Part shown: positions 10,879 through 33,959 of the stretch, piece after piece
Layout of the letters: each line of letters starts with the position of its first letter
Numbering within the stretch: position 1 is the first letter of the stretch
Assembly: GCA_023248955.1 (NCBI GenBank)
Contig: JAHFDP010000023.1
Coordinates: 1-50,838, forward strand
DNA from: Deltaproteobacteria bacterium
GTDB lineage: Bacteria; Myxococcota; Myxococcia; Myxococcales; JAHFDP01
Direction of reading: 5' to 3'
Length of the DNA stretch: 50,838 bases
Notes under the pieces: generated by a model
The model's input: only the letters and a program-made list of their open reading frames with translations
What the model was told of the DNA's origin: nothing
Databases searched by the model: none
Program-made: the position numbers and the translations under genes

Positions 10879-13800
10879 CTAGAAAAACCAGACCGGCTGA
10901 AGTGGGTAATACCCGCTGCCCGGATAGGAGCCGCCGAAGGCGTTGGCGGCCACCCCCCAACACTGCACGCCGCCGTCCGCGCCGAGGAAGCAGGTGGCCG
11001 CTCCGCTGGTCACCATCGAGACGACGCCGCTCGGAACAGCCAGCACGCTGGTTGGGGTGGTGCAGGTATAGGACGATCCACACTCCGCGCCATTGCCGAC
11101 GCCCAGTTGGCCGTAGCTTTCATCGCCCCAACACTTGGCGCCGCCGCCGCTCATGAGCGCACAGGTGTAACTAATGCCGGCGGAGATGGCGGCAACGCCG
11201 GAAGCCAAACCAACCACGTCGACGGGAGTCACCCGAACGCTGAGCGAGTTGTCCCCGAGCTGTCCGCTGGCGTTGTTACCCCAGCACTTCACGCCACCCG
11301 CGCTGGTCAACGCGCAAGTGTGGGAGCTACCGCAGGTGATCGCGCTAACGCCGCTGGTGAGCCCGATCACGTCGGTCGGTGAGGAAACGCCGGTCGTGGT
11401 TCCATTGCCGAGCTGTCCGTGATCGTCGCTACCCCAGCACTGAACGCCACCAGCGGAAGTTATCGCGCACAAGTGGCCCCCGACCCCGGCACAGAAACTG
11501 CGCACACCGCTGGTCAGCCCCGCAACATCGACCGGCTTGCTGTAACGCGGACCGCCGAGCTCGCCCCAGCACTTGAGCCCTCCGGTGGCGCTCATGATCG
11601 CGCAGGAAGCCTCTCCCCCAATCGCTATCGAACTGACGCCGCTTGCGAGCCCGACGACGTCGACCGGCGTGAGGCGCGTGATCACGCTGTTGTCACCGAG
11701 ATTGCCCACGTCATTATTTCCCCAACATTTGACGCCGCCCGCGTTGGTCAAAGCGCAGCCGTAGTAGGCGTTGATGGCCACCGCGCTAATCCCCACGGTA
11801 AGTCCTGTCACATCCACTGGCGTCGTGCTGTCAGTGATGGAGCCGTTGCCAAGCGACCCGTATTGATTGCTCCCCCAACACTTCACGCCGCCGGATTCGG
11901 TGAGGCCGCAGAGCGTGGAAATGGGATAAGCGCGAGTTGTGGCGCCGCCGCCGAAGAGCGCCGCTACCTTGTGGGAGACCACGAATCGCGGCGGCGCGTC
12001 ATAAGCCTTGACCGTGACAAGCGGCGATTGAATCGGCAGCGGACCTGTCGACGGCCCGTAGCCGTTTGAAGCTTGAACGGTGAACGTGCCCGCTTGGCTC
12101 ACGTCCGCTGCTGACATGGACACGGTAAGTTGCGAGCTTGAGACGAACGTCGCCGTGCGCGGGCTTCCGTTCCAGCTCAACGCCGAGCCATTCACGAAGT
12201 TGGCGCCGTTGAGCGTCATGGTGAAGTTTCCGCCGCCAGCCACGGCGGACATCGGCGAGAAGCCCGTCAGCTGTGGAAACAGCACCGTGAGCATCTGCTT
12301 ATTGGAAACGCCGCCGCCCGGCGTTGGGTTCACCACGGTAACGTTGGGGTGCGAAGCACTACTATATTGAGTATTTAAGAGTGCCGCAGTGCTCGGCGGA
12401 ACAGTGGCGGCGAGGTGCGTGGCGTCGATGAGCGAGGTGGTCAGGTTCGTTCCCTCGAGCTGCACGATCGAGGTCTCGAAAAAGTTCGTACCGGTCACTG
12501 TCAACGCGAAAGCATTGGCGCTGATGGTTACCGGATTGGGAACAAGCGCGCTCGCGGTCGGTACCGGGTAGTTCACCGAATAGGTCTGCGCTCCAGAGGT
12601 CCCGCCGCCGGGCACGGGATTCGTCACGGTCACGCTCACCGCCCCAGGCGTCGCCACATCGCTCGGCGTAATCGTCACCGTCAGCTGCACGGGCGATCCG
12701 ACCGTGGTCGGCCGCGGCGATCCATTCCAATTCACCACCGAACCGCTGACGAAGCTCGACCCATACAGCGTGAGAACGAACGGCGCAGCAATCAGCCCCG
12801 CGGTCGGCGAAAGGCTATTCAATACTGGCGCGGGATTGCTGAGCGAGAAGACCTGCGCATTGGAAGCGACGGTGTTGGGATTTTGCACCGTGATGTTGAT
12901 CGCGCCGGAGGCCGTTAGGTCGGACGCGGGCACCACGGCGGTCAGCAGCGTCGGGTTCACGAGCGTCGTCGTCAGCGCGGCACCGCCCCAGAGAGCGGTC
13001 GAGCCGCTCACGAAATTGGAGCCGTTCACGGTGAGCGTAAAGAGCTGCGCGCCCACCAACGCGGTGCTGGGGCTGATGCTGGTCGTCACCGGAATCGGGT
13101 TTTGCACCGTGAAGGTCTGCACGTTCGAGCTTCCGCCCGCGGGCGCGGGATTGTTGACTGCGACGAGGATCGGTCCCGGCGTGGCCACCGCGCTCGCCAA
13201 AATCTTGGCGGTGAGGGTTTGCGGATCCACGAACTTCGTGTCGAGCGTTTGTCCGTTGAAATCGACCACGGCGCCGGTCACGAACTTCGAACCAGTTACG
13301 ATGAGCGTGAAGTCCGTGCTTCCGGCGATCGCGGCTGTTGGCGCGATGGACGTCGTGGCGGGAACTGGATTGCCAATCAGAAAAAAGATTCCGCTGGAGA
13401 GCCCGCCGCCCGGCACCGGATTTCGAACTTGAATCACCACCACGCCCGCCGCCGCAACGTCGGCGCTGGTGATGGAGGCCACGAGTTGGGTCGGGTTTGA
13501 GACTACGGTCAGTCGATCCGATCCGTTCCATTCAACGGTTGCTCCCGGCGCAAACCCAGTGCCGCTCACCGTCATGAAAAAGGCGCCCGAACCAGCTACG
13601 CCCGAGATTGGAACGAGACTCTGCGGCTGCGGAAGCGGGTTCACCACGGTCAACGTCAACGGGCTGGAAACGCCGCCGCCCGGAGCGGGATTCGTAACGG
13701 TGATGGAAACTGGCCCAGCCGTGGCGATCTGCGCGGCGTCCACGGTCGCGGTGAGCTGCGTTTCATTCACCAGCGTGGTTGAGAGCGGCAGCGCGCCCCA

Positions 13801-14799
13801 CTTCACCACCGACGTTGCCAGAAACTTGTCCCCGGAAAGCGTCAACGTGAAGCCCGGACCACCGGCGATCACCGTAAGTGGATTCACGCTACTCGCTACG
13901 GGCACGCCGTTCTCAATGGTGAACGTCTGCGGCGTGCTACTGCCACCACCTGGCGCAGCATTGGACACGGTGATCTGCGCGCTGCCCGGGTGCGCCAGCT
14001 TTTCCGCGGGCACCGCTGCAGAGAGCTGGCCGCTTCCGGCGGGGCTGGTCGAGAGATTCTCGCCGTTCCATTGCGCGACGGAGCCCGCGACAAACGAGGA
14101 TCCGACCAAAATCACGGTAAGCGCTCCATCGCCAGCCGTGGCGCGCGCGGGGTTCACGCCCACCAGCACCGGAACGGGATCGTCCACCGCAAACACCAAT
14201 GCAGCGCTGGTCCCACCGCCGGGCGCCGGTGTGTAGACCGTCACCGATCCGCCGACCGTCCCCGCGATATCGGCGGCCGTGACATCCGCGGTGAGCTGCG
14301 TCGCGCTCTTGAAGGTGGTGGCGCGCGGAAGCCCGTTCCACTGCACGACGCTTGACTTGACAAAATGTTCACCGGTCACCGCGAGCGTGAAACCGCCGCT
14401 GCCCGCGATGGCGGTGCTCGGCGAAAGCGCGCTGGCCGTGGGCGCCAGGTTCTGCACCGTGAACGAGAGGGCGTTCGAAGTTCCGCCGCCGGGAGGTGAA
14501 TTCAAGACGCTCACCGAAACAGTGCCGCCCGTCGCCAGGTTGGCTGCGGAAATGGTTGCGGTGATGTCGATGCCACTCAGCATCTTCGTCGGGAGCACCG
14601 CGCCGTTCCACAAGACGCTGGATCCGTCAACGAACCCGTGCCCATGCACCGAGAGCGTCAGTTTCCCGTCGCCCACGTTGGCGGACGTGGGCGTCATGCT
14701 GGCGAGGGTCGGGACGTCGTTGGATTTTTTGATGGCTGATTCGCGGCCGGGGCATGCTCCGAGAAAGAGTGCGCAGAGAGCTACGGTCGATTTTTTCAT
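10879..14799 (-). CDS. Giant lipoprotein: ten IPT/TIG repeats plus seven-bladed RCC1 propeller
   Basis: A 1306-residue predicted lipoprotein. The signal MKKSTVALCALFLGAC ends in the lipobox LGAC. Ten IPT/TIG-like Ig repeats of about 85 residues follow (about residues 28-900), each beginning with a 'P..SL.P..A.AG...F' strand and containing a 'VVxWNG' turn and a PGGG loop near its end. The last about 330 residues form seven RCC1-type blades, each with a CA(L/I)-GGVKCWG cysteine pair and a G(Q/S)LG(N/D) turn. Seven blades suggest a closed beta-propeller on a long Ig stalk, displayed at the cell surface. No enzymatic motif is present. A GGAG ribosome binding site precedes the ATG. It is related to the stump at 7905 and the lipoprotein at 31587. 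Binding or adhesion is inferred. Confidence 0.8.
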   Translation of the reverse strand: MKKSTVALCALFLGACPGRESAIKKSNDVPTLASMTPTSANVGDGKLTLSVHGHGFVDGSSVLWNGAVLPTKMLSGIDITATISAANLATGGTVSVSVLNSPPGGGTSNALSFTVQNLAPTASALSPSTAIAGSGGFTLAVTGEHFVKSSVVQWNGLPRATTFKSATQLTADVTAADIAGTVGGSVTVYTPAPGGGTSAALVFAVDDPVPVLVGVNPARATAGDGALTVILVGSSFVAGSVAQWNGENLSTSPAGSGQLSAAVPAEKLAHPGSAQITVSNAAPGGGSSTPQTFTIENGVPVASSVNPLTVIAGGPGFTLTLSGDKFLATSVVKWGALPLSTTLVNETQLTATVDAAQIATAGPVSITVTNPAPGGGVSSPLTLTVVNPLPQPQSLVPISGVAGSGAFFMTVSGTGFAPGATVEWNGSDRLTVVSNPTQLVASITSADVAAAGVVVIQVRNPVPGGGLSSGIFFLIGNPVPATTSIAPTAAIAGSTDFTLIVTGSKFVTGAVVDFNGQTLDTKFVDPQTLTAKILASAVATPGPILVAVNNPAPAGGSSNVQTFTVQNPIPVTTSISPSTALVGAQLFTLTVNGSNFVSGSTALWGGAALTTTLVNPTLLTAVVPASDLTASGAINITVQNPNTVASNAQVFSLSNPAPVLNSLSPTAGLIAAPFVLTLYGSSFVSGSVVNWNGSPRPTTVGSPVQLTVTITPSDVATPGAVSVTVTNPVPGGGTSGAQTYSVNYPVPTASALVPNPVTISANAFALTVTGTNFFETSIVQLEGTNLTTSLIDATHLAATVPPSTAALLNTQYSSASHPNVTVVNPTPGGGVSNKQMLTVLFPQLTGFSPMSAVAGGGNFTMTLNGANFVNGSALSWNGSPRTATFVSSSQLTVSMSAADVSQAGTFTVQASNGYGPSTGPLPIQSPLVTVKAYDAPPRFVVSHKVAALFGGGATTRAYPISTLCGLTESGGVKCWGSNQYGSLGNGSITDSTTPVDVTGLTVGISAVAINAYYGCALTNAGGVKCWGNNDVGNLGDNSVITRLTPVDVVGLASGVSSIAIGGEASCAIMSATGGLKCWGELGGPRYSKPVDVAGLTSGVRSFCAGVGGHLCAITSAGGVQCWGSDDHGQLGNGTTTGVSSPTDVIGLTSGVSAITCGSSHTCALTSAGGVKCWGNNASGQLGDNSLSVRVTPVDVVGLASGVAAISAGISYTCALMSGGGAKCWGDESYGQLGVGNGAECGSSYTCTTPTSVLAVPSGVVSMVTSGAATCFLGADGGVQCWGVAANAFGGSYPGSGYYPLQPVWFF

Positions 14800-21943: not shown

Positions 21944-23314
21944 ATGCGTGAACGCGTCCTCATCGTTGATGACGAGCAGAATGCGCGCGATGCGTTGCGC
22001 ACGCTGCTCGTGGAGGAAGGCTACGAGGTCGCCGAAGCGGCCGACGGAGAGGAAGCGCTCGAAGCCCTGGACCATTTTGCGCCTGCCGCAGTGCTCTCGG
22101 ACATGCGCATGCCCAAGCTCGATGGGCGCTCCCTGCTTAAGCGTGCGCGAGAGATGGGCAGCGACGCGGTTTTCGTGATGATGACGGCCTATGCGTCGAT
22201 TGACGTGGCCGTGGAAGCGATGCGAGCGGGTGCGGAAAATTTTCTGGTGAAGCCGCTCGACGTGGGTGCCGCGCTGATGGTGTTGCAAAAGGCGCTCGAG
22301 AAACGCGCGCTCCTGCGCGAAGCGGCTGGCCTGCGCGAACGCGTGCGAGAGCGGGTGCGCTTCAAAAATATTGTCGGCGATGCACCGGAGCTGGTCGCGG
22401 TGTTCGACGTGATCAAACAAGCCGCGCCGACCAAGGCCACGGTGCTCCTGCTCGGCGAATCGGGCACCGGTAAGGAGCTCATCGCGCAGGCGTTGCACGA
22501 GGCGTCGGATCGCAAGGACAAGCCATTTGTGAAAGTGGCTTGCGCGGCGCTCTCGGAGTCGTTGTTGGAGAGCGAGCTCTTCGGGCACGAAAAAGGATCG
22601 TTCACGGGTTCCATCGGCCGCAAGGAGGGCCGCTTCGAACTGGCCGACGGAGGCACGCTTTTTCTCGACGAAATCGGCGAGATTTCACCGTCCGTGCAGG
22701 TGAAGCTTTTGCGCGCGTTGCAGCAGCGGGAGTTCGAGCGCGTGGGCGGCACGCAGACGCTCAAGGTCGATGTGCGGGTCGTGGCGGCGACCAACCGTGA
22801 CCTGGCCGCCGAAGCCAAAGCGGGCCGCTTCCGCGAGGATCTCTACTACCGCCTCAACGTTGTCGCGATCACCTTGCCGCCGCTGCGCGCGCGCAAGAGC
22901 GACATTCCGGCGCTGGTGAGCCACTTCCTCGAAAAGTACGCCACCGCCTATGGCAAGGACGTGAAGGGCCTGGCGCCGGGGACGCTCAACGCGTTCTTGG
23001 CGCACGACTGGCCTGGCAACATTCGCGAGTTGGAAAACGCCGTCGAGCGCGCGGTGGTGCTCGGAAAGAGCAGCGAGCTCACCGCCGACGATCTGCCGGC
23101 AACGCTTCGGGGGCCGCGTCCGCTCGGTCAGGGCGCGGGGTCGCTGATCCCCGGCGCGACGTTGCATGCGATCGAACGCGAGGCCATTTTGCGTACGTTG
23201 GAGATGGTGCAGGGTTCGACGATTCGCGCCGCACAGGTGCTGGGCATCAGCCCGCGCAAGATTCAGTACCGCTTGAAGGAGTACGCGGAGGCTGCGCCGG
23301 CGGAAGCGGAATAG
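21944..23314 (+). CDS. NtrC-family sigma-54 response regulator
   Basis: A 456-residue activator. A receiver domain (residues 1-120, phospho-acceptor Asp53, Lys103) is followed by a AAA+ domain with Walker A GESGTGKE at 171-178 and the sigma-54 contact loop as GSFTGS at 218-223, a variant of GAFTGA. Walker B is GGTLFLDEIGE. The Fis-type C-terminal helix-turn-helix holds TIRAAQVLGISPRKIQYRLK. It activates sigma-54 promoters when phosphorylated. No kinase is adjacent on the same strand, but three genes of a phosphorelay without any DNA-binding output lie at 23775-26692, so it may be their target. Confidence 0.93.
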   Translation: MRERVLIVDDEQNARDALRTLLVEEGYEVAEAADGEEALEALDHFAPAAVLSDMRMPKLDGRSLLKRAREMGSDAVFVMMTAYASIDVAVEAMRAGAENFLVKPLDVGAALMVLQKALEKRALLREAAGLRERVRERVRFKNIVGDAPELVAVFDVIKQAAPTKATVLLLGESGTGKELIAQALHEASDRKDKPFVKVACAALSESLLESELFGHEKGSFTGSIGRKEGRFELADGGTLFLDEIGEISPSVQVKLLRALQQREFERVGGTQTLKVDVRVVAATNRDLAAEAKAGRFREDLYYRLNVVAITLPPLRARKSDIPALVSHFLEKYATAYGKDVKGLAPGTLNAFLAHDWPGNIRELENAVERAVVLGKSSELTADDLPATLRGPRPLGQGAGSLIPGATLHAIEREAILRTLEMVQGSTIRAAQVLGISPRKIQYRLKEYAEAAPAEAE

Positions 23315-23341
23315 TTAGTCTAGCTCGCCACTCCTCGTCGT

Positions 23342-23578
23342 TTAATAATCCTCGAGATGTTCGGCTACGATGATCTTCAGCATCGTCTGGTAACCGATGT
23401 GCCGCTTGGCCGCCTTCTTGCGGAGTTTCGCGATTAGGTCCAGAGGCAAGACGATAGAAGTCGCCTGGCTCTTGTGTTTCAAGAGCCGAGGCTTGAGCCC
23501 TGAGGCTTCGATATCCTCCCCGAGGTCTTTCGTTTCGAACTCGTCGAGCTGCCTATCCTTCTTCGCACGCTTGTTCAT
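23342..23578 (-). CDS. Putative CopG/BrnA-type antitoxin without visible toxin
   Basis: A 78-residue basic/acidic protein from the ATG at 23576-23578, which has a good ribosome binding site (AAAGGAA). The C-terminal part reads TSIVLPLDLIAKLRKKAAKRH, then GYQTMLKIIVAEHL. This is the strand-helix-helix of BrnA-like or CopG-like ribbon-helix-helix proteins ('i.lp..l...l...a...g..yq.li'). The frame stays open upstream for 31 codons, but those look less likely. BrnA genes normally follow a brnT toxin gene; upstream of this start I see no toxin-like frame, so it appears orphaned. Confidence 0.6.
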   Translation of the reverse strand: MNKRAKKDRQLDEFETKDLGEDIEASGLKPRLLKHKSQATSIVLPLDLIAKLRKKAAKRHIGYQTMLKIIVAEHLEDY

Positions 23579-23774
23579 AAAGGTTCCTTTCGTTTTCCAG
23601 TCCCGTGCGGGTGGATCATCGGACAGTTTCATTGATAGATATACAATAGCTATATCCGAAGGCTCGGGCAAGGCGCCAACCGTAAGCGTCGGTCGCGGCG
23701 GATCGTCGGCAAAGGCCAGCAGGCGTTGGCGGCACCACTAGTTCACGGCAACAACGAAAATGGCGCGTCCCTTT

Positions 23775-24863
23775 TTATCGCATGATCGGTAACCGCACCG
23801 TCATTCGCGCGCCGCCGCTCGGTGCTGTCCCACTCGAAATCTGCCCGCCGTGCTGGGTGACGATCGCGTGAACGATTGGCAAGCCCAACCCGGTTCCGCT
23901 GGCCTTCGTCGTAAAAAAGGGCTCGAAGATTCGCTCACGCGCTTCTCGCGAAATCCCAGCCCCGGTGTCGTCGACGGTCAGCACGACCTCCTCGCCGACG
24001 TGCGAAGCGGTGAGCGTCACCGTGCCTCCGTTGGGCGTGGCATCGAGCGCATTGAGCGTCAGGTTCATCACCACCTGCTTGAGCCGATCGCCGTCGCCGG
24101 CCACGGATGGCAGCGTCGGGGTTGCGCGGGAGAGGTGGACGCCACGCCGGACCGCTTCGCCGGTGAGCAGCTCTAGGACAGCGCCGATCACCGCGCCGAA
24201 GTCCACGGGTTTGGGCGTGAGCACCTGGGGACGGGCGAACTGCAAGAAGTCGACGAGCAGGTGATCGAGGCGGCGGATTTCGTTTTGCACCGTTGCCAGC
24301 GGCAGGAGGAGCGGAGGTTGCAATTTTTCATCGAGGGTACGGACGCGCCGTTCGAGGATGGTGAGCCAAAGCCCCGCCGAGTTGAGCGGGTTTTTGATCT
24401 CGTGCGAAAGTCCCGCCGTGAGCGTCCCCACCGCGGCCAGCTTCTCGGCCACCATGGCCCGGCGCGCGAGATCGCGCTTCTCCTGCGCCAGTCGGACATG
24501 GCGCATGGCCTGCTGAATGGTGAGTAACAACTCGGGCATGGCGCAGGGCTTGATGAGATAGGCGAACGCACCCGCGCGGACCGCCGCCGTCGCTGTCGCC
24601 ACGGTGGCATAGCCGGTGAGCACCACGATTTCCCCGAGTGGAACTTTTTGTTTGAGCTGTCCTGCCAGCTCGGTTCCGTCGCCGTCGGGCAGCCGCAGAT
24701 CGACCAGCGCTACATCGTAACCGTCCGCTGAGGCGGCGAGCGCGGCCTTCGCGGATCCGACGGCGCGGCATTCGCAGCCTTCCTCCGTGAGAATTTCGGA
24801 GATGTTTTCCGCCAGCGCGGTGTTGTCGTCAACGATCAGCACGCGGGCGGCGGGCGTGGTCAT
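23775..24863 (-). CDS. Receiver-histidine kinase hybrid (REC-HisKA-HATPase)
   Basis: A 362-residue soluble kinase with an N-terminal receiver (Asp55 in VALVDLRLPDGDG, Lys105), a dimerisation helix with GLSHEIKNPL (His154), and an ATPase domain with N-box QVVMNLTLNALDA, G1 DDTGAGIS and G2 GTGLGLPIV. The receiver in front of the kinase means that a phosphoryl signal may switch the kinase, the reverse of usual hybrids. It has no sensor or membrane segment. The ATG overlaps the stop of the tandem-receiver gene by four bases. It is the last gene of the relay operon. Confidence 0.92.
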   Translation of the reverse strand: MTTPAARVLIVDDNTALAENISEILTEEGCECRAVGSAKAALAASADGYDVALVDLRLPDGDGTELAGQLKQKVPLGEIVVLTGYATVATATAAVRAGAFAYLIKPCAMPELLLTIQQAMRHVRLAQEKRDLARRAMVAEKLAAVGTLTAGLSHEIKNPLNSAGLWLTILERRVRTLDEKLQPPLLLPLATVQNEIRRLDHLLVDFLQFARPQVLTPKPVDFGAVIGAVLELLTGEAVRRGVHLSRATPTLPSVAGDGDRLKQVVMNLTLNALDATPNGGTVTLTASHVGEEVVLTVDDTGAGISREARERIFEPFFTTKASGTGLGLPIVHAIVTQHGGQISSGTAPSGGARMTVRLPIMR

Positions 24864-25558
24864 TTGGGCGCCACCCAAAGCTGCTCGACTTGCTGGAGCA
24901 AGGCAGGGGTGTCGAAGGGTTTGCGGAAGAGGTGCGCGCAGGCGAGCGGAGCATCGATGTCGTGCGCGGTGGTGACGATCATCGAGAGCGCTGGAAACCG
25001 CGCCGCCAAGCGCCGCATCGCTTCTCCGTCGGGCCCGCCGGGGACGCGCAGATCGACTATCGCCGCGAAGGGTCGCACGCCGCCGAGTCGATCGGTTTCG
25101 CTCACCGAATCGGCGGTGACCGCGGTGAATCCTCGTTCAGACAGCGCTTCGGTCAGGTTGTCGGCCAGCGCTTCGTCGTCTTCGATCAGCACGACCAGCG
25201 CATTGCGGCGCGCTTGCTTGAGCAGGCGCAAGAGCCGTTCTACCGGCACCGGCTTCTGCAAGATCGCGAGGAGGCCCTCCCGGCGCGCATCTTCCAGATC
25301 CGCGTCGCCGGTGTAGGCCGTGATGACGACGGCAGGTAGGCCGGGATCGATGCGGCGGATTTCGTGTACCAGCTTGGCGCCGTTCATCACCGGCATGCGC
25401 ATGTCGGTGACCAGCGCGTCAAACTGGCTCGCGCGGGCCAAGTCCAACGCTTCGGCGCCGCTCGCAGCCACCGTGGCCGTGTCTCCTTGGTCGGAGACGA
25501 TCTCGGCTAGGTTTTCACCGAGCGCGCGGTTGTCGTCGACGAAGAGAAATTTTCGCAT
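24860..25558 (-). CDS. Tandem-receiver protein (REC-REC, no output domain)
   Basis: A 232-residue protein of two receiver domains. The first spans residues 1-118 (acidic pair at 8-9, Asp52 in TDMRMPVMNG, Lys102). The second spans about 120-230 (EDDE at 126-129, Asp169 in IVDLRVPGGPDG, Lys213). Both keep the acidic pocket, the acceptor Asp and the Lys, so both should be phosphorylated. There is no DNA-binding or enzyme domain. It lies between two kinase genes, the globin-sensor kinase upstream (adjacent) and the receiver-kinase hybrid downstream (overlap), and probably passes phosphate between them or acts as a sink. Confidence 0.9.
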   Translation of the reverse strand: MRKFLFVDDNRALGENLAEIVSDQGDTATVAASGAEALDLARASQFDALVTDMRMPVMNGAKLVHEIRRIDPGLPAVVITAYTGDADLEDARREGLLAILQKPVPVERLLRLLKQARRNALVVLIEDDEALADNLTEALSERGFTAVTADSVSETDRLGGVRPFAAIVDLRVPGGPDGEAMRRLAARFPALSMIVTTAHDIDAPLACAHLFRKPFDTPALLQQVEQLWVAPK

Positions 25559-26692
25559 TTACAGCGCCGCCGGAAGTCGGACCACAAAGCGCGCGCCCGA
25601 CCCTTGAGGCTCGTAAACGATCGTTCCGCCGTGCCGCTCGACGAAACGTTTGACCAGCGCGAGTCCCAAGCCAACGCCTTTTTGTTTGGTGGTGATGAGC
25701 GGTTCGAAGAGGCGGCGCTTGGTGACTTCATCGACGCCGGGACCGGAGTCTTCGATGGCAATTTCGAGGGCCTCGTCCAAGCGTCGCCCGCGGATTGTGA
25801 CCTCGCCCGATTCGCCGACCGCGTGAATGGCGTTCTCCATCAGGTTGGTGAACACCTGCCGAAGTTGGGACGCGTCGCCGTCGACGAAGAGATCGTCGAG
25901 TCCGCTCGTGGTGAGCCGCACGCCGGGCGGCTGTGGCAGGGCGAGGGCGGAAATCACCTGGGCAAGAGGGACGCGCTCGCGCACCAGCGGATTGTCGCGA
26001 ATCAGATCGAGCAGGTTCGAGATGATGACGCTGGCGATGCCGAGCTGCTCCCCGATGCGGGCCACGTGTTTCTTGGCGCGCTCGTCCTCGCCGATGCGCG
26101 AGCTGAGCAAATAGAGCGAGGACTCCATCACGCCGAGCGGATTGCGCAGCTCATGGCTGATCGATCCCACCAGCTGCCCGAAGGTCGCCAACCGCTCGGT
26201 GCGCGCTTGCTGCGCCACCAGGTCTTCGCGGTAGGTGTGCAGCATGATGGCCAGCTCCAAATCGAGAATGCGCTCGAGCGCGCGGCGGGCGGCATGTTTT
26301 TGCGGGAGCTGTTTTGGGTAGACGTCGTCGACGATGTTGTTGAACTCGTTTCGCACGACGTTCATGGCGGCGAACATGTAATGCTGCGGCAGCGCAATGC
26401 GCACGTGAAGGCGGCCGATGCGGCAGCGCAGATCGAAGTAGGATTCGTCCCACGGGCCGGTCAAAAGCTTATCCATCCAAGCGACCAGGGTCACCTTGAG
26501 GTGGCCGACCTGACGCTCCCCTCCGCGCAGCGCGTTGCGCGCGCCTTCATGCTCGAGGATACGCGCGTAGAAAACTTCGGCGACGGAGGCAAAACGGGGT
26601 GCCGCGGCAGGGTAGAGCTCGCGCAGGGCTGTCTTATCCGCCGCGCAAAATCCCACATACCGTTTGAGCTCCTCGAACAATGATTCGGCCAT
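25559..26692 (-). CDS. Globin-coupled sensor histidine kinase
   Basis: A 377-residue cytoplasmic kinase. Residues 1-150 fit a protoglobin/globin-coupled sensor, with a [21 protein letters not shown] segment whose His96 sits where the proximal heme ligand is found in HemAT- and DosC-type sensors. The kinase core has [17 protein letters not shown] (His180), the N-box [14 protein letters not shown]1 EDSGPGVD and G2 GVGLGLALV. It should bind heme and respond to O2, NO or CO. It is preceded 9 bp upstream by a 27-codon membrane-peptide gene and followed directly by the tandem receiver. Heme binding is inferred from motif only. Confidence 0.88.
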
Positions 26693-26785: not shown

Positions 26786-26839
26786 TTATTCTCCTTGCGC
26801 AGCCTTTGCGCGGTGTTTTGGCGGATCGCAGGATTTGCG

Positions 26840-27274
26840 TCAGCGAACGATGAGCAGCGGCTTGATGCAGATGTGCGCCAGCCGCGACGAGACGCTGCCG
26901 AGAAGCGCGCGCTTCAACGCACCCTGGCCGCGTGAACCAATCACCGCCATTTTGACGCTCGGGTCCTCCGCCTCGCCAGCGAGCGTGTCGGCGGCTTCCC
27001 CATAGACGACAGCGGCGACCGCCGGTACGCCCGCAGCCCGCGCTTTGGCCACGGCATTTTCAGTGAGGTGCATCCCGAAGGCGCGGTGTTGTTGTTCGGC
27101 CTCGCCCACCCAGGAGCCTTCCACCTCGGGCGGAAGGTGCAAAGGTGGAATGACGTAGGCGACGAGCAGTTCGTGCCCGCCTTGCCGGGCGAGCTCGATG
27201 GCTTCCTGCAGCGCGTGCTCGGATGGCGGGGAACCGTCAAAGGCGATCAAGATTTTTTGTCGCGGTGTGTCCAT
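26840..27274 (-). CDS. Universal stress protein (UspA family)
   Basis: A 144-residue single Usp domain from the ATG at 27272-27274 (the frame extends further upstream without support). It opens KILIAFDGSPPSEHALQEAI, and the C-terminal MAVIGSRGQGALKRALLGSVSSRL fits the ATP-binding G2xG9G(S/T) loop of ATP-binding UspA proteins. Such proteins bind ATP and are induced under stress and hypoxia in many bacteria. It starts 68 bp from the divergent PLD-GGDEF gene, and its stop lies 55 bp from the start of the small membrane peptide gene. It therefore probably heads the relay operon. Confidence 0.92.
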   Translation of the reverse strand: MDTPRQKILIAFDGSPPSEHALQEAIELARQGGHELLVAYVIPPLHLPPEVEGSWVGEAEQQHRAFGMHLTENAVAKARAAGVPAVAAVVYGEAADTLAGEAEDPSVKMAVIGSRGQGALKRALLGSVSSRLAHICIKPLLIVR

Positions 27275-27342
27275 GTCGCGATGAAATGCAACTGCGATGC
27301 CGCGGCTTGGCCGCGCTCCTGCATGCTGATCAGGAAGGGACC

Positions 27343-29232
27343 ATGGCCGCTGCAAATCTTGCGAAGTCTTGCGATGGCGCGGCAGACGGCGCGGGTGGTG
27401 GCCCTATGGATGGGGTGAAGCTGCTTGCCGGTGGAGCGCAGGCCTTTGCGCGCATGCTCGCCGCCATCGCCGCGGCACGCGAGAGCGTCTACCTCGAGGT
27501 CTATCTTTTTCGGACCGACGCCACCGGTCGCCATTTCCTCGATGCGCTCGTTGCAGCACGGCGGCGCGGCGTGCGGGTGGAGGTCATTCTCGACGGTTGG
27601 GGCTCCGCGGCAGATGGTCGGACGATCTTCGCGGAGCTGGCGGCGGCAGGGTGTGTAGTGTGTATACACAACAGGCTGCGCGCCTTTCTGGTCGGCCGTT
27701 TCAACCGCGACCACCGCAAAATTCTGCTGGTTGATCGCCGCGTGGCTTTCATCGGTGGCATCAACATCGGAAACGAATACGCCTGGTCGGAAGAGGAGGG
27801 TGGCTGGGCCGATCTTGCTGTCGAGCTCGAAGGTCCGGTGTGCGAGCGCCTCGCCTGCGAGATTGCCGGCGCGCCATTGCCAGTGAGCGACGGACCGGTG
27901 CGCGTGCTGCTTTCACGTCCGTGGGGTGGGCGGCGTTTGCGGCGCCGTTATTTGCGCGCCATCCGCAACGCCCGCCAGCGCATCGCCCTGGCGCAGGGCT
28001 ATTTCTTGCCGGACCGCCAACTCTTGCGCGCCATCTGCGCCGCGGCTGAGCGGGGGGTGGAGGTGACGCTGCTTCTGGCGGGTCGCACCGACGTCGCCTT
28101 CACCCATTTGGCCACGCGCCGCCTCTACCGTCGCCTGCTGACCTCGGGTGTGCGTCTGTTCGAATGGCACCGATCGGTGCTGCATGCGAAGGCGGCCGCC
28201 ATCGATGGAACGAAGCTCCTCGTCGGGAGCTTCAACGTGGATCCGGCGTCGCTGGTGATGATGGAAGCGCTGGTGGAAGCCGACGGCGCAGAGGCCGCGC
28301 AGCAGGTCGAGGCCTGGATTGCGGGGCACGTTGCGTCTGCACGGCCGCTCGCCACAACGGATCTTCGCCGTGGCGGTCCGCTCTCGTGGGCCAGCGAAAG
28401 TGCGGGGCTCCTTTTCGAGCGCGCCGGTGGTTTTCTCAACCAGCGCAGCCGGTTGATGGAAGCGGGCGCGACGAGGGAAGACCATCGAGTGGATCGCAGA
28501 CACGCTGAGCTTTTGAAGGATGGTGTCGCGTCACCCCGCTGGCACCACTTCGCGCTGACGGGTGCGGTGCTGGCCACTGGAGCGCCCGCGGGTTGGCTCT
28601 TCTTGCGCATGCTTTCGGGCGCCGCCGCGCAGGATGGTGCGCGCGCGGAAATCGTCGCGCACGCGGAGCTGTACAGCTATCTGCTGGTGTCGACGCTGGC
28701 GGTTTTCACGGTTTTCGGCGCGCTGGTTGGGCTGTTGCTGGACGAGCTTTCGAATTCCAACACCGAGCTGCGCGCGCTGGCGGTCACCGACGCGCTGACG
28801 GGATTGGGAAATGCACGTTCGTTTCACGCGCGGTTGACCGAAGAGAGTGCGCGCGCGCATCGCGACACCAGGCCGCTGGTGCTGGTGGTGGCCGACCTGG
28901 ATCATTTCAAGGCCATCAACGATCGTCTCGGTCACCAAGCTGGAGACGGATTGCTGGCGCGCGTGGCGGATGCGCTTCGCCAGCACATGCGGCTGGTCGA
29001 CTTGCCTTTCCGCATCGGCGGCGACGAGTTGGCGCTTTTGTGTCCAGGCACCGATGCGGCGGAAGCCCAGACGCTGGTCGATCGGATTCGCCTGGCGTTC
29101 GCCTCGCTCGGCGCGACAGGTTCGTTCGGTATCGCCGCGCTCGAGACGACACCGCGCGATCTGTTTCGGCGCGCGGATGCGGCGCTCTATGCGGCCAAAC
29201 GCGCGGGCGGCGATCGGATCGTTGCGGGGTAG
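27343..29232 (+). CDS. Phospholipase-D-type enzyme fused to membrane-anchored diguanylate cyclase
   Basis: A 629-residue protein from the ATG preceded by AGGAAGGGA. Residues 25-335 form a two-motif PLD domain of the cardiolipin synthase kind. HKD motif 1 has His124, Lys126 and Asp131 with GGIN at 138-141. Motif 2 has His281, Lys283 and Asp288 with GSFN at 295-298. After a linker come two hydrophobic helices (about 403-424 and 445-467), then a GGDEF domain (478-629). That domain has VTDALTGLGN, active site GGDEL at 559-563, and an intact inhibitory site RLVD at 550-553. It should thus synthesise c-di-GMP with product feedback. The reading frame is continuous and both active sites look complete. 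It is divergent from the uspA-kinase operon. Confidence 0.88.
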   Translation: MAAANLAKSCDGAADGAGGGPMDGVKLLAGGAQAFARMLAAIAAARESVYLEVYLFRTDATGRHFLDALVAARRRGVRVEVILDGWGSAADGRTIFAELAAAGCVVCIHNRLRAFLVGRFNRDHRKILLVDRRVAFIGGINIGNEYAWSEEEGGWADLAVELEGPVCERLACEIAGAPLPVSDGPVRVLLSRPWGGRRLRRRYLRAIRNARQRIALAQGYFLPDRQLLRAICAAAERGVEVTLLLAGRTDVAFTHLATRRLYRRLLTSGVRLFEWHRSVLHAKAAAIDGTKLLVGSFNVDPASLVMMEALVEADGAEAAQQVEAWIAGHVASARPLATTDLRRGGPLSWASESAGLLFERAGGFLNQRSRLMEAGATREDHRVDRRHAELLKDGVASPRWHHFALTGAVLATGAPAGWLFLRMLSGAAAQDGARAEIVAHAELYSYLLVSTLAVFTVFGALVGLLLDELSNSNTELRALAVTDALTGLGNARSFHARLTEESARAHRDTRPLVLVVADLDHFKAINDRLGHQAGDGLLARVADALRQHMRLVDLPFRIGGDELALLCPGTDAAEAQTLVDRIRLAFASLGATGSFGIAALETTPRDLFRRADAALYAAKRAGGDRIVAG

Positions 29233-29286
29233 CACGGACGTCGCAGATTCCCGTTTCGCGCAAACGTTGCGTGCGCCATCAGTCAT

Positions 29287-29301
29287 GCGCAGTTTCTGCG
29301 C
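29287..29301. other. Short perfect hairpin after the PLD-GGDEF gene
   Basis: GCGCAG and CTGCGC pair around TTT, 54 bp after the stop. The following sequence has no U-run, so it is at most a weak terminator. The remaining space up to 29409 shows no gene. Confidence 0.3.
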
Positions 29302-29409
29302 TTCTGGAGTCGTTCGCGCGCGATCGCTGCGCCTCCACGAAGCTCGCTACTTCTCGGAAAGGCTTCTGCGGCCCCGGTGTTGCAGTGGTTACGCTCAGGA
29401 GGACCAACC

Positions 29410-30729
29410 ATGTTTCTTGCGGCTCCGTTTCGTGGCGTCATTTCAGCCGTAGCCCTTGTCCTCGCTCCAGCGCTTGCCCACGCGCTGCCGGCGTTCGCGC
29501 GCAAGACGGGATTGGCCTGCTCCTCCTGCCACGAGGTGTGGCCGCGCCTCAACGATTTCGGGCAATCGTTTCGCGACCGCGGCTTTCGTCTTGAGGGCGG
29601 ACGCGATGCGCCCATCGAGCAGCCGGGCTCGTATTGGCCGCTCGCCATGCGCACCACCGTGGGCTACCAGTGGTTGCGCCAAGCGCTGGTCGCAACCGAC
29701 GGCGGCACCACCACCACGCAGACCGGTGCCTTCGGTTTCACGGGGCTGGACGTGCTCTCGGGAGGGACCCTCGCGAACAAGGTCAGTTACCTCGTCACCT
29801 ACACGCCGGGCCTGACCGGTGCAGGATTCAGCCAAGGTCCGCAAGACGGAGATCTCGAATCGGCTTTTGTTGGCATTCACGACATCGGGGGATCTTCGTG
29901 GGCGAACTTGCGCGTCGGCAAACACGCGATCGACCTGCCCATCGACGAGCACCGCTCGCTCACGCTAACGCAGGGCTACAACGTTTACCATTTCCATCCG
30001 CAAGGCTCGGCGGTCACCTACGAACCGGGCGAAAATCAAACGGGCGTCGAGTGGTATGGACATTCCGACTACAGCCGCTTGCGCTATTCAATCTCGGTCT
30101 CCAACGAAAACGGTGCGCCGCTCTCGGGGCATTGGGTAAGCACGCCAGCGGTGTGGGCGCATCTTCAGGGTACGCAGTACGTCGACAATGATTTGCTGGC
30201 GGCCGTTACGGCCGGCGTTTTCGGAATGAGCGGTTGGCATCCGACCGCTTTCCAGGTGCTGACCCCGACTGAGGGAACGGCGGCCCCGGTTCTGGGAACG
30301 GGATCGAGCTTCAAGGCTTACCGCCGAATGGGCGCTGAGCTGCACCTCACGTTCTTGAGCATCGTGTTCCCGTTAACCGCCTCGGCGGTTGCCTTCACGG
30401 GAAGCGACGACGCCGGCCTCATTCAAAGCGGCGTGCGCGACGGGCAGTTCGTCGGCGGCTTTGGCGAGCTGACTTACACCCCGAGTCTGCGCTGGACGGG
30501 CATCGTGCGCTACGAGCAAATCCGAAACACGCAGGCCGGTAGCGATGCCGCGCCTCTCGCAACTGGCAACCTCAACGCGCTGACCGCAGCCATTCGCCAC
30601 ACCGTGGAGATGACCAGCCGCACGGAGCTCGCGGTTCATCTCGAGGTGAGCCGCAGTGCCGCGCTTGCCGCCGATGGTACGGCGCCGTCAACGGTGACCG
30701 GGCTGGCCGGTTTCGATTTCGCGTTTTAG
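29410..30729 (+). CDS. Heme-c / outer-membrane beta-barrel fusion protein
   Basis: A 439-residue exported protein starting at the ATG after CAGGAGG (signal peptide ending AHA). The mature N-terminus carries one heme-c site, ACSSCHEVWPRLNDFG. The rest looks like a beta barrel: alternating aromatic strands, an RVGKHAIDLPIDEHRS segment, and a C-terminal FDFAF ending in Phe. A single heme placed at the mouth or plug of a barrel could pass electrons across the outer membrane. The next gene encodes a diheme cytochrome 12 bp downstream. Similar one-heme barrel proteins are known in deltaproteobacteria and related lineages; their roles are little studied. Confidence 0.75.
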   Translation: MFLAAPFRGVISAVALVLAPALAHALPAFARKTGLACSSCHEVWPRLNDFGQSFRDRGFRLEGGRDAPIEQPGSYWPLAMRTTVGYQWLRQALVATDGGTTTTQTGAFGFTGLDVLSGGTLANKVSYLVTYTPGLTGAGFSQGPQDGDLESAFVGIHDIGGSSWANLRVGKHAIDLPIDEHRSLTLTQGYNVYHFHPQGSAVTYEPGENQTGVEWYGHSDYSRLRYSISVSNENGAPLSGHWVSTPAVWAHLQGTQYVDNDLLAAVTAGVFGMSGWHPTAFQVLTPTEGTAAPVLGTGSSFKAYRRMGAELHLTFLSIVFPLTASAVAFTGSDDAGLIQSGVRDGQFVGGFGELTYTPSLRWTGIVRYEQIRNTQAGSDAAPLATGNLNALTAAIRHTVEMTSRTELAVHLEVSRSAALAADGTAPSTVTGLAGFDFAF

Positions 30730-30741
30730 AGGAGATTCCAC

Positions 30742-31530
30742 ATGCGACGTTCTCTCTTGTTTGTTCTCCTGGCCTTGCTCCCGCTCGGCCTGATCGCCGC
30801 CGCCGAGGTGCCGCCCGCGCTCGACATCCCGACCACCGAGGCTCCCACGGCGGCGCCGCAATCCCTCGACGCGGAGCGGGTGAAGCGCGGCAACGCGGTC
30901 TACGATCGCTACTGCATCTCCTGTCACGGTGTCGAAGGGGACGGGCGTGGCTACTCGGCGCCGTGGCTGGATCCCGCGCCGCGCGATTTTACCCGCGGCG
31001 TTTTCAAGTGGCGCTCCACGCCGTCGGGCAGCCTGCCTACCAACGAGGATTTGATGCGCACGTTGACCGTGGGGCTGTTCCACACCAACATGCCGTCTTG
31101 GGGTGTGCTGGGAGAACGCAACCTTCGTGACGTGGTCGAATACCTGAAAACTTTTTCGCCCGCCTGGAAGGAACAGGCCCCGGCCGCGCCGATTCAAATC
31201 CCGGCCGAGCCCACGAACGACGCGGTCTCGCGCGAAAAGGGCGGCGAGGTTTGGACCCGTCTCGCTTGCGCGTCCTGCCATGGCGCCACAGGAAAAGGGG
31301 ACGGACCTTCGGGCTCCACGCTGGTCGACGACTGGGGCCACAAAATTTTGCCCCACGACTTCACGCGCGGGCACTACTTAAAATGCGGCGACCGCTCCGA
31401 GGATCTCTACCGCGTCTTCATGACGGGCATGAGCGGCACACCGATGCCATCCTACGCCGAATCGCTCAGTCCCGCGGAGGCCTGGAGTCTCGTTCACTAC
31501 GTGCAGTCGCTGGTCCACGAGGAGCCGTAA
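30742..31530 (+). CDS. Periplasmic diheme cytochrome c
   Basis: A 262-residue exported protein with two cytochrome-c domains. CISCH near residue 58 and CASCH near residue 177 are the heme sites. Candidate distal methionines follow in NMPSW and TPMPSY. The N-terminal signal is strongly hydrophobic; cleavage after AAA is likely. A proline-rich linker (AAPIQIPAEP) joins the domains. It sits 12 bp after the heme/barrel gene with a good ribosome binding site (GAGGAG), so both are probably made together as a short electron path between periplasm and outer membrane. No terminal oxidase or reductase lies in the window. Confidence 0.9.
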   Translation: MRRSLLFVLLALLPLGLIAAAEVPPALDIPTTEAPTAAPQSLDAERVKRGNAVYDRYCISCHGVEGDGRGYSAPWLDPAPRDFTRGVFKWRSTPSGSLPTNEDLMRTLTVGLFHTNMPSWGVLGERNLRDVVEYLKTFSPAWKEQAPAAPIQIPAEPTNDAVSREKGGEVWTRLACASCHGATGKGDGPSGSTLVDDWGHKILPHDFTRGHYLKCGDRSEDLYRVFMTGMSGTPMPSYAESLSPAEAWSLVHYVQSLVHEEP

Positions 31531-31586: not shown

Positions 31587-33104
31587 TCAAAACTGTACTT
31601 CCACAGGGGTCATCCGCGTTTGCTGTGTGCCATCGCCGAGCTCGCCGAAGCCGTTCGCGCCCCAGCAGTGAACCACACCAGCTCCAACAATGGCACAGGC
31701 GTGCGGACCGCCGGTGACCACGGCCGTTGCTCCGGAAAGGGCGCTGACGGAGGTCGGCACGTGGCGGTCGTTTTTGGTCCCATCTCCGAGTTGGCCGGTG
31801 CTGTTGCTGCCCCAGCAAAAGACGTTGCCGGAAGCGACGGCGCATTTGTCGTCAACGCTTCCCGAAAACGAGGTTACTCCAGCAAGGCCGGCGACGGTGA
31901 TTGGCGTGAGGCTAGCATCCGTATTGTTGTTTCCGAGTTCGCCGAGACTGTTTGAGCCCCAGCACTGGACCGTGCCATCTTGCAGGAGCGCGCAGGTGCT
32001 CTCTTCGTTTCCGGTCAGGAAAAAGGCTCCGGCGGAGACCGCGCGTGCGGGGCCGGCCAGGCCCGCGACGTTAACCGGCACGGCGCTGTCGTTGTTGCCG
32101 CCGTTGCCGAGTTGGCCATTGCTGCCCGCTCCCCAACACTTGACGGCGCCGGAATGGGTCACCGCGCAAGTGTAGTAGATGCCCGCTGAGATCTGCGCCA
32201 CGTTGGAAAGGCCGACGACGTCGACGGGCGTTGGGCGGTTCGATTGCGAGTTGTCGCCCAATCCGCCGGCCGCATTGAGCCCCCAGCACTGGGCGCTACC
32301 TGTCGCGGTAATGGCGCAGCTGTGCCCCAACCCCGCACTGACGGATTGCGCGCCCGCCGAGAGCCCCGCCACGGCGACCGGTGCGTCGCTCTCGGCCCAG
32401 CTGTTGTTGCCGAGTTGCCCGTTGTCGCCGGGGCCCCAGCAGTAAACGGCACCAGCCGTGGTGATCGCGCAGCCGTGATCGCCCGCCGAGACGTTCGCTA
32501 CGTCGGCGGTGAGGCCGGAGACGTTTTGTGGAATGCCGCGGCTCTTTTTCGTCCCGTCGCCGAGTTGACCCTCGCCGTTGTACCCCCAGCATTTGAGCCC
32601 GCCCGCCTTGGTGACGGCGCAGCTGTAGTTGAGGCCCGCAGCAACTGCGGTGGCCAGCGTTCCGGGGGCGCGCTGTAATGCCGCTTTGCCCGTGAGCGAA
32701 ACGGCGAGGGACGAATCGTTATCGGCGTCGGAGAGAACCAGGAGGCGCACGCTGTCGGATCCCTCGGATGTTGGCGCATAGGTGATCGTGACGGTGAGTG
32801 AAGCGCCGCGGCCCAAGGAGAGATTGCCGGGTTTTGCGATCTGGAAGGCCGCGGTCGATTGGGTTGATGGAACGCCGAAAGATGAAATTGCCGTCGTCCC
32901 ATCGAGGACGAAATCGTGAAGGGTGATCGTGTCCGCGCCTTTGTTGGACAGGACCAGGGTGCGCGCTGCGGAGGCGCCCGGCGCGACGGTTCCAAAGTCG
33001 AGCGCCGTCGGCACGGCGGCAAGGATGGCGCTGTGATCATGTTTGTCGGGTGTTCGGCACCCCGAGCTTAGAACGCCGACGAGTGCCCACCAGGTGATTC
33101 GCAT
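31587..33104 (-). CDS. RCC1-propeller lipoprotein with Hydin-like N-domain
   Basis: A 505-residue predicted lipoprotein starting at the ATG at 33102-33104 (ribosome binding site GGAGG). The signal ends in LSSGC, an acceptable lipobox. Residues about 30-150 form an Ig-like ASPM/Hydin-type domain (LDFGTVAPGASAARTLVLSN). The rest is seven RCC1 blades, each with a cysteine pair CA(V/I)...CWG and G(Q/E)LG(D/N). Seven blades imply a complete propeller. It is a smaller relative of the giant lipoprotein at 10879, with a different stalk. The frame is open for 180 more codons upstream, but these lack a signal peptide. Convergent with the cytochrome gene. Confidence 0.8.
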   Translation of the reverse strand: MRITWWALVGVLSSGCRTPDKHDHSAILAAVPTALDFGTVAPGASAARTLVLSNKGADTITLHDFVLDGTTAISSFGVPSTQSTAAFQIAKPGNLSLGRGASLTVTITYAPTSEGSDSVRLLVLSDADNDSSLAVSLTGKAALQRAPGTLATAVAAGLNYSCAVTKAGGLKCWGYNGEGQLGDGTKKSRGIPQNVSGLTADVANVSAGDHGCAITTAGAVYCWGPGDNGQLGNNSWAESDAPVAVAGLSAGAQSVSAGLGHSCAITATGSAQCWGLNAAGGLGDNSQSNRPTPVDVVGLSNVAQISAGIYYTCAVTHSGAVKCWGAGSNGQLGNGGNNDSAVPVNVAGLAGPARAVSAGAFFLTGNEESTCALLQDGTVQCWGSNSLGELGNNNTDASLTPITVAGLAGVTSFSGSVDDKCAVASGNVFCWGSNSTGQLGDGTKNDRHVPTSVSALSGATAVVTGGPHACAIVGAGVVHCWGANGFGELGDGTQQTRMTPVEVQF

Positions 33105-33191
33105 GGAACCTCCGCGATTCAATTGGAATCGGCCGATTGTAACATCGGTGCCGCAATTGCCGCCCGCGCCGGGAGGCCGTAAAGTGCCGTC

Positions 33192-33959
33192 GTGTCCTCG
33201 CGCGCGCCGCTGACCTTTTCCGCTGTGTCCGACGTCGGGATGAAGCGCGATCACAACGAAGACAGCTACCTGGTGAACGAGGGGCTCGGGCTCTTCGTCG
33301 TTGCCGACGGCATGGGTGGACATGCGGGTGGCGAGACCGCCTCGAAGTTGGCCGTGGCCGCGATCGAGCGTGAGTTGAAAGGCGCGGCCGAGCAGCCGGA
33401 GAATCCGTTCACGAGCGCTGCGCCGCTCCGTGAGACGCCGCTGGCCGATGCGCTGCGCGAAGCGGTGGAGGGCGCCTGCGCCGATGTTTTTCATGCCGCC
33501 AAAGCCACGCCCGCGCTGGACGGCATGGGTACCACCGTGGTGGCGCTCTTGATTTTTGATCAAGGGGCGATCGTTGGTCACGTGGGCGACAGCCGCGTCT
33601 ATCTGGTGCGCGCCGAGCGGGTTTTGCAGCTGACCGAGGACCATTCGCTGGTGAACGAGCAGGTGCAGGCAGGACTGCTCACGCCGGAACAGGCGCGGGT
33701 GAGCCGCTACAAAAACATCATCACGCGCTCGGTTGGTTTCGAGGAGGACGTGCTGGTCGACGTGATGGGCGTGGCAACGGAGACGGGCGATACGCTGGTT
33801 CTCTGCTCCGACGGGCTAGCCAATCTGGTGGAGCCCGACGAGATCGGCGAGACGGTTCGAACGGCGGCGATCGGGGAAGTGGCGCAGCGGCTGGTGGATC
33901 TCGCCAATGCGCGGGGCGGCGATGACAACGTCACGGTGATCGCGGTCCGCTGCGGATAA
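33192..33959 (+). CDS. PP2C-type serine/threonine protein phosphatase
   Basis: A 255-residue soluble phosphatase of the bacterial Stp/PrpC type. All metal-binding motifs are visible: GMKRDHNEDSYL near the start, VVADGMGGHAGGE, GDSRVYLVR, SDGLANLV and GGDDNVTVIAV at the end. It removes phosphate from Ser/Thr residues, usually opposing a Hanks-type kinase, none of which lies in the window. The start is GTG at 33192. Divergent from the RCC1 lipoprotein gene; the 87 bp between them should hold both promoters. Confidence 0.93.
   Translation: MSSRAPLTFSAVSDVGMKRDHNEDSYLVNEGLGLFVVADGMGGHAGGETASKLAVAAIERELKGAAEQPENPFTSAAPLRETPLADALREAVEGACADVFHAAKATPALDGMGTTVVALLIFDQGAIVGHVGDSRVYLVRAERVLQLTEDHSLVNEQVQAGLLTPEQARVSRYKNIITRSVGFEEDVLVDVMGVATETGDTLVLCSDGLANLVEPDEIGETVRTAAIGEVAQRLVDLANARGGDDNVTVIAVRCG

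Follow-up and report, generated by a model that had tools for sequence, protein, structure and literature searches.

The window, by which we mean the whole stretch of 50,838 nucleotides that was analysed, carries on its plus strand a long open reading frame that joins a phospholipase D (PLD) type region to a GGDEF domain (Table 1). No stop codon lies inside the frame 27343–29232. The frame is open further upstream, from 27223, and the ATG at 27343 is preceded by a Shine-Dalgarno-like AGGAAGG. The ATG at 27406 is also a possible start, as homology with related proteins begins nearer to it than to 27343; GC3 of codons 1–24 is low (0.54).

Table 1 Features of the fused gene and its surroundings. 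Positions refer to the window.
Feature	Position	Strand	Remarks
NtrC-like regulator, NmpR candidate	21944..23314	+	convergent on nmpS
Receiver–histidine kinase hybrid, NmpS homologue	23775..24878	-	
Two-receiver protein, NmpT homologue	24860..25558	-	
Globin-coupled histidine kinase, NmpU/AfGcHK homologue	25559..26692	-	
Paired NmpR-type sites upstream of nmpU	26797..26840		one perfect, one with 2 mismatches and an intact core, 14 nt apart
Universal stress protein	26840..27355	-	divergent from the fused gene; probable start 27274
Fused ORF, 629 aa	27343..29232	+	open frame, Pfam domains, motifs
Alternative start ATG (M22)	27406	+	would give 608 aa
PLDc_2 repeat 1	27457..27777	+	HKD motif 1, HRKILLVD, H124–D131, nt 27712–27735
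PLDc_2 repeat 2	27952..28323	+	HKD motif 2, HAKAAAID, H281–D288, nt 28183–28206
Junction TTG-ATG	28453..28458	+	TTG where stand-alone PLD genes end; ATG 28456 = M372
Linker, residues 372–397	28456..28533	+	26 codons; GC3
Two predicted membrane helices, about residues 401–421 and 445–467	28543..28743	+	hydrophobicity; kept in the stand-alone 2TM-GGDEF family
GGDEF domain	28780..29214	+	RLVD I-site 28990–29001; GGDEL 29017–29031
Paired NmpR-type sites between the fused gene and the 29377/cytochrome c genes	29258..29301		one with 1 mismatch, one perfect, 14 nt apart

Two stretches of the predicted protein match Pfam PLDc_2 (PF13091; 137.1 bits against a gathering cut-off of 27), the Pfam PLDc score is 34.7, and the C-terminal part matches GGDEF (PF00990; 122 bits against a cut-off of 23.8). 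Chance matching is no concern, because both domains have E values below 1e-34. There are two HxKxxxxD motifs (H124/K126/D131 and H281/K283/D288), and an RxxD inhibitory site (RLVD, residues 550–553) lies five residues ahead of the active-site motif GGDEL (559–563). Both membrane helices precede the GGDEF domain, the one around residue 412 being weak and the one around residue 456 strong. The preliminary description of this DNA had a single frame running from a two-HKD PLD domain through two helices to a GGDEF domain with GGDEL and RxxD; open frame, Pfam matches and motif positions all agree with it.

The fused gene adjoins four genes homologous to NmpRSTU of Myxococcus xanthus and to the AfGcHK system of Anaeromyxobacter sp. 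Fw109-5. In M. xanthus, NmpU, NmpT, NmpS and NmpR constitute an oxygen-responsive phosphorelay (PMC6211767; PMC11841059). All four types of component occur together at 21944–26692 of the window, namely a globin-coupled histidine kinase, a protein with two receiver domains, a receiver–histidine kinase hybrid and an NtrC-like response regulator. The sensor domain of the NmpU homologue matches the solved sensor domain of a globin-coupled histidine kinase (PDB 5ohe) with an E value of 9.5e-59, and the convergence of the regulator on nmpS agrees with the arrangement described for Anaeromyxobacter. For Anaeromyxobacter, the genes controlled by the NmpRSTU/AfGcHK-type system are stated to be unknown (PMC11841059), and cardiolipin synthase, phospholipase, c-di-GMP and GGDEF all go unmentioned in the main text of the paper on the M. 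xanthus regulon (PMC11841059). Elsewhere in the window, two large RCC1-repeat proteins are encoded on the minus strand (10879–14799 and 31587–33644), one of them with ASPM/SPD-2/Hydin-like Ig domains.

The NmpR site of M. xanthus is GCGCA-N5-TGCGC, mostly found in pairs 14–15 nt apart (PMC11841059). The window holds just two perfect sites of this type; they flank the fused gene, and each has a partner at 14 nt, the spacing that NmpR of M. xanthus favours (PMC11841059). Loose matches are at chance level (124 observed, 122 expected), and therefore weight is placed on perfect, paired sites only. The second pair stands directly upstream of a region (29377–31530) that encodes a di-domain cytochrome c as well as a 450-residue protein which contains heme motifs (CxxCH) and matches no Pfam family; the region is a probable NmpR-controlled respiratory operon. 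No NmpR pair was found within 450 nt upstream of the start of the fused gene. A sigma-54 promoter for this gene at 27308–27323 was considered and rejected: the first pattern had been picked post hoc, after the site was seen, and in a weighted scan 20% of shuffled sequences were as good. With no NmpR pair and a sigma-54-like site that is not significant, control of the fused gene by NmpR is therefore deduced from its relatives.

A fused homologue was absent from the genomes searched for the same architecture at the level of the order (60), the class (147) and the phylum (195), none of these being another member of the source genus or family. Coverage beyond the phylum is thin, consisting of 49 further genomes, with no fused homologue, and 72,556 plasmid records, in which tblastn found no fused architecture at a cover of at least 80%. 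Across all genome and plasmid searches, the only match spanning both halves was the window's own genome, and in a scan of genome contigs almost all matches were to GGDEF. Matches on Caballeronia plasmids reaching about 70% cover were rejected as fusions since they fall into two pieces, which are separate genes in the one record inspected. No fusion of a PLD protein or cardiolipin synthase with GGDEF was found in the literature; one candidate paper (PMC6355987) turned out to be unrelated. The earlier statement that no characterised protein is known to have the order PLD–GGDEF thus holds within the scope searched, where no second example was found. The fusion looks private to this genome.

The two halves are each complete proteins elsewhere. 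Over its whole length the PLD half can be aligned with stand-alone proteins of relatives, which are 45–56% identical to it. Its best NCBIfam family is the cardiolipin synthase ClsB (PRK11263/NF008427), at 208.8 bits; the curated cut-off of NF008427 is 281 bits, and therefore the name goes no further than ClsB-like. The protein shares with ClsB the two PLDc_2 repeats and both HKD motifs, but scores below the cut-off, belongs with a separate myxobacterial family of stand-alone proteins, and has a two-helix GGDEF region (2TM-GGDEF) added at its C-terminus. Degeneration of this half was considered and ruled out: both HKD motifs are whole, and the changes at 9 of 99 near-invariant columns are inside the range of the orthologues in a leave-one-out comparison. 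We infer that it is a ClsB-like phospholipid synthase of the PLD superfamily. The GGDEF half is likewise found as a complete stand-alone two-helix protein, in five genomes and at 45–48% identity. The open frames of these genes are 280–313 codons long, the alignment runs through both helices, and the probable starts lie shortly ahead of the first helix.

The join between the halves is narrow. The window DNA across it is CGGTTGATGG, and the protein there reads ...FLNQRSR-L-M, in which the methionine (M372, ATG 28456) is the would-be first codon of a separate GGDEF gene. In relatives, the stop codon of the stand-alone PLD gene is no more than a few residues away from this point. As the PLD reading frame stops here in relatives, and TTG abuts ATG in the window, a single base change or insertion separates the fusion from two abutting genes. 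GC3 of the linker is 0.58, compared with 0.75–0.82 in the domains, a weaker coding signal, though from a small sample of only 26 codons; this is as expected of former leader DNA. The linker also contains a candidate internal start, GTG 28489, behind GAGGGA (28473–28478). The fusion is probably recent.

This narrowness gives rise to the main rival to a stop-loss fusion, namely that there is no fusion in the cell, and that a base-calling or assembly error, or a strain variant, masks the stop codon of the PLD gene. The locus would then be a normal operon of two genes, the stop of the first abutting or overlapping the start of the second, and would encode a ClsB-like enzyme and, separately, a 2TM-GGDEF protein. 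It would take no more than a substitution of TAG to TTG, or a T inserted into a TGA/ATG overlap, in a draft assembly of 116 contigs; the position of the stop codons in relatives and the lack of any fused relative agree with this. However, the whole join is open in frame, and a sequence error at one given codon is rare a priori. We regard this explanation as unlikely, although it deserves to be taken seriously.

The surroundings of the stand-alone genes are informative. Among the 14 order-level genomes with a close orthologue, 8 have the stand-alone PLD gene near nmpU (within 4 kb in G029, G055, G049, G057, G051, G037, G059 and G017), a synteny that rests on two families plus the window. One of these genomes (G055) has the order of the window, NmpS-NmpT-NmpU-Usp-PLD, without a GGDEF gene. 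In G029, which has the closest PLD orthologue, the genes for PLD, OsmC and NmpR stand in a row on the same strand. Ahead of the PLD gene in this locus (L134, 3885–9705) lie a triplet of NmpR-type sites and a sigma-54-like site of good quality, and the row is divergent from an operon for a copper protein and a multiheme cytochrome.

The stand-alone 2TM-GGDEF gene is near nmpU in two of the five genomes (G001 and G008), where it is surrounded by genes for acetate kinase, NmpR, HemN and fumarate reductase. Across genomes its neighbours include acetate kinase, HemN, fumarate reductase, a universal stress protein and a P-type ATPase, several of which are typical low-oxygen genes. In a genome from another class (G189; locus L132, 2327–11497) it has paired NmpR-type sites, and its neighbours are universal stress proteins, an ADP-forming acyl-CoA synthetase-like gene and a P-type ATPase.

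Paired NmpR-like sites were found upstream of the closest stand-alone PLD orthologue and, with variable spacing, upstream of 3 of the 5 stand-alone 2TM-GGDEF genes; pairs were counted at 5–50 nt, a spacing at which 0.1–1% of shuffles of the same DNA but 3.5–7% of random real segments also contain a pair. The promoters of most stand-alone PLD orthologues have no recognisable sites.

Adjacency of a cardiolipin synthase gene and a gene for a c-di-GMP domain is also seen in Caballeronia (for example NZ_CP084262.1). There the two are separate genes, unlike in the window, and the partner is annotated as an EAL-domain protein. On the plasmid of Caballeronia sp. SL2Y3 (L139, 4749–8204), the EAL-domain gene follows the cardiolipin synthase gene after 117 nt; three other Caballeronia records have similar two-piece matches.

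On the basis of these observations, we consider it rather likely that the frame arose when the stop codon between two abutting, co-directional genes was lost, probably recently and in this lineage alone, and that both genes, PLD and 2TM-GGDEF, are of the Nmp neighbourhood and probably of the NmpRSTU regulon. Several points count against this reading: the promoter of the fused gene, with no NmpR pair and a sigma-54-like site at chance level; the bare promoters of most stand-alone PLD genes; the small number of families behind the PLD–nmpU synteny; the atypical GGDEF motif described below; and the fact that a one-base sequencing error at the junction gives the same picture. The analysis shows the open frame, its domains and motifs, the two stand-alone families, the place of the junction, the synteny and the sites; we infer the enzyme activities, the topology and the regulation, as well as the absence of a base-calling error behind the fusion.

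A mechanism by which the two outputs would be controlled can be proposed from the published M. xanthus model, in which NmpU is turned off, NmpS passes phosphate to NmpR, and the sigma-54 promoters of low-oxygen genes fire. A fall in oxygen would switch off the heme-globin kinase NmpU, and NmpS would then phosphorylate NmpR. A diguanylate cyclase and an enzyme of lipid remodelling are predicted to be among the NmpR targets. In the source genome a single polypeptide, tethered to the membrane, would carry both outputs, and its two catalytic domains would lie in the cytoplasm. These domains would most likely work independently, and some free cyclase may nevertheless arise from an internal start, either GTG 28489 or ATG 28456.

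A closer relationship between the domains can be imagined, in which the cyclase would be controlled by the PLD domain to which it is attached, the latter acting either enzymatically or as a sensor of lipid. Both domains would face the cytoplasmic side of the membrane, and the protein retains the two HKD motifs, the I-site and the majority of the GGDEF residues. Nevertheless, such an integrated signalling enzyme is very improbable: the fusion is private, the linker is short with a weak coding signal, and the stand-alone 2TM-GGDEF protein carries its own membrane region and therefore requires no PLD input. The stronger proposal, that cardiolipin-type phospholipid synthesis and c-di-GMP synthesis would be allosterically coupled in one bifunctional membrane protein as an oxygen-sensing output, is to our minds just as hard to credit. 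The preliminary description was right about the domain order, and its view that no characterised protein is known to have this order also stands within the scope searched, but its suggestion that a lipid-sensing PLD domain couples phospholipid composition to c-di-GMP is without direct support, the halves being complete alone, the join one codon wide and the linker weaker in coding signal than the domains. A shared Nmp oxygen-sensing neighbourhood is the better-supported link between them.

The GGDEF half resembles membrane-anchored GGDEF cyclases (PF00990) in its above-cut-off domain, its RxxD I-site and its N-terminal membrane helices, and differs from them in several residues and in its position behind a PLD enzyme. 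Residue 563 is L, where 78 of 78 aligned GGDEF domains have F, giving GGDEL; two arginines are lost, residue 491 being A (R in 99% of the 78) and residue 623 G (R in 92%); and a loop is short, with about 9 residues absent ahead of the ATGSFGIA segment relative to the stand-alone 2TM-GGDEF proteins. With RLVD intact, these changes could mean a cyclase that is lost or weakened, the domain serving the lipid enzyme as a membrane anchor or a c-di-GMP-binding (I-site) domain, but this is very improbable, since the signature for binding metal and GTP (DLDHFKAINDRLGHQAGD, GGDE) is preserved, and stand-alone relatives with canonical GG[DE]EF also vary at the NRR position. Given the atypical residues, cyclase activity is no more than plausible.

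The main new point is the gene context, with the fused gene beside the genes for NmpU, NmpT, NmpS and NmpR. Read as a stop-loss event, the fusion serves as a "Rosetta stone" clue: it connects a c-di-GMP protein with a lipid synthase, neither of them characterised in these bacteria so far as we could find, and links the two with the NmpRSTU/AfGcHK system. It leads to the prediction, which is testable in myxobacteria, that oxygen limitation would change both membrane phospholipids and c-di-GMP by way of Nmp-controlled genes.
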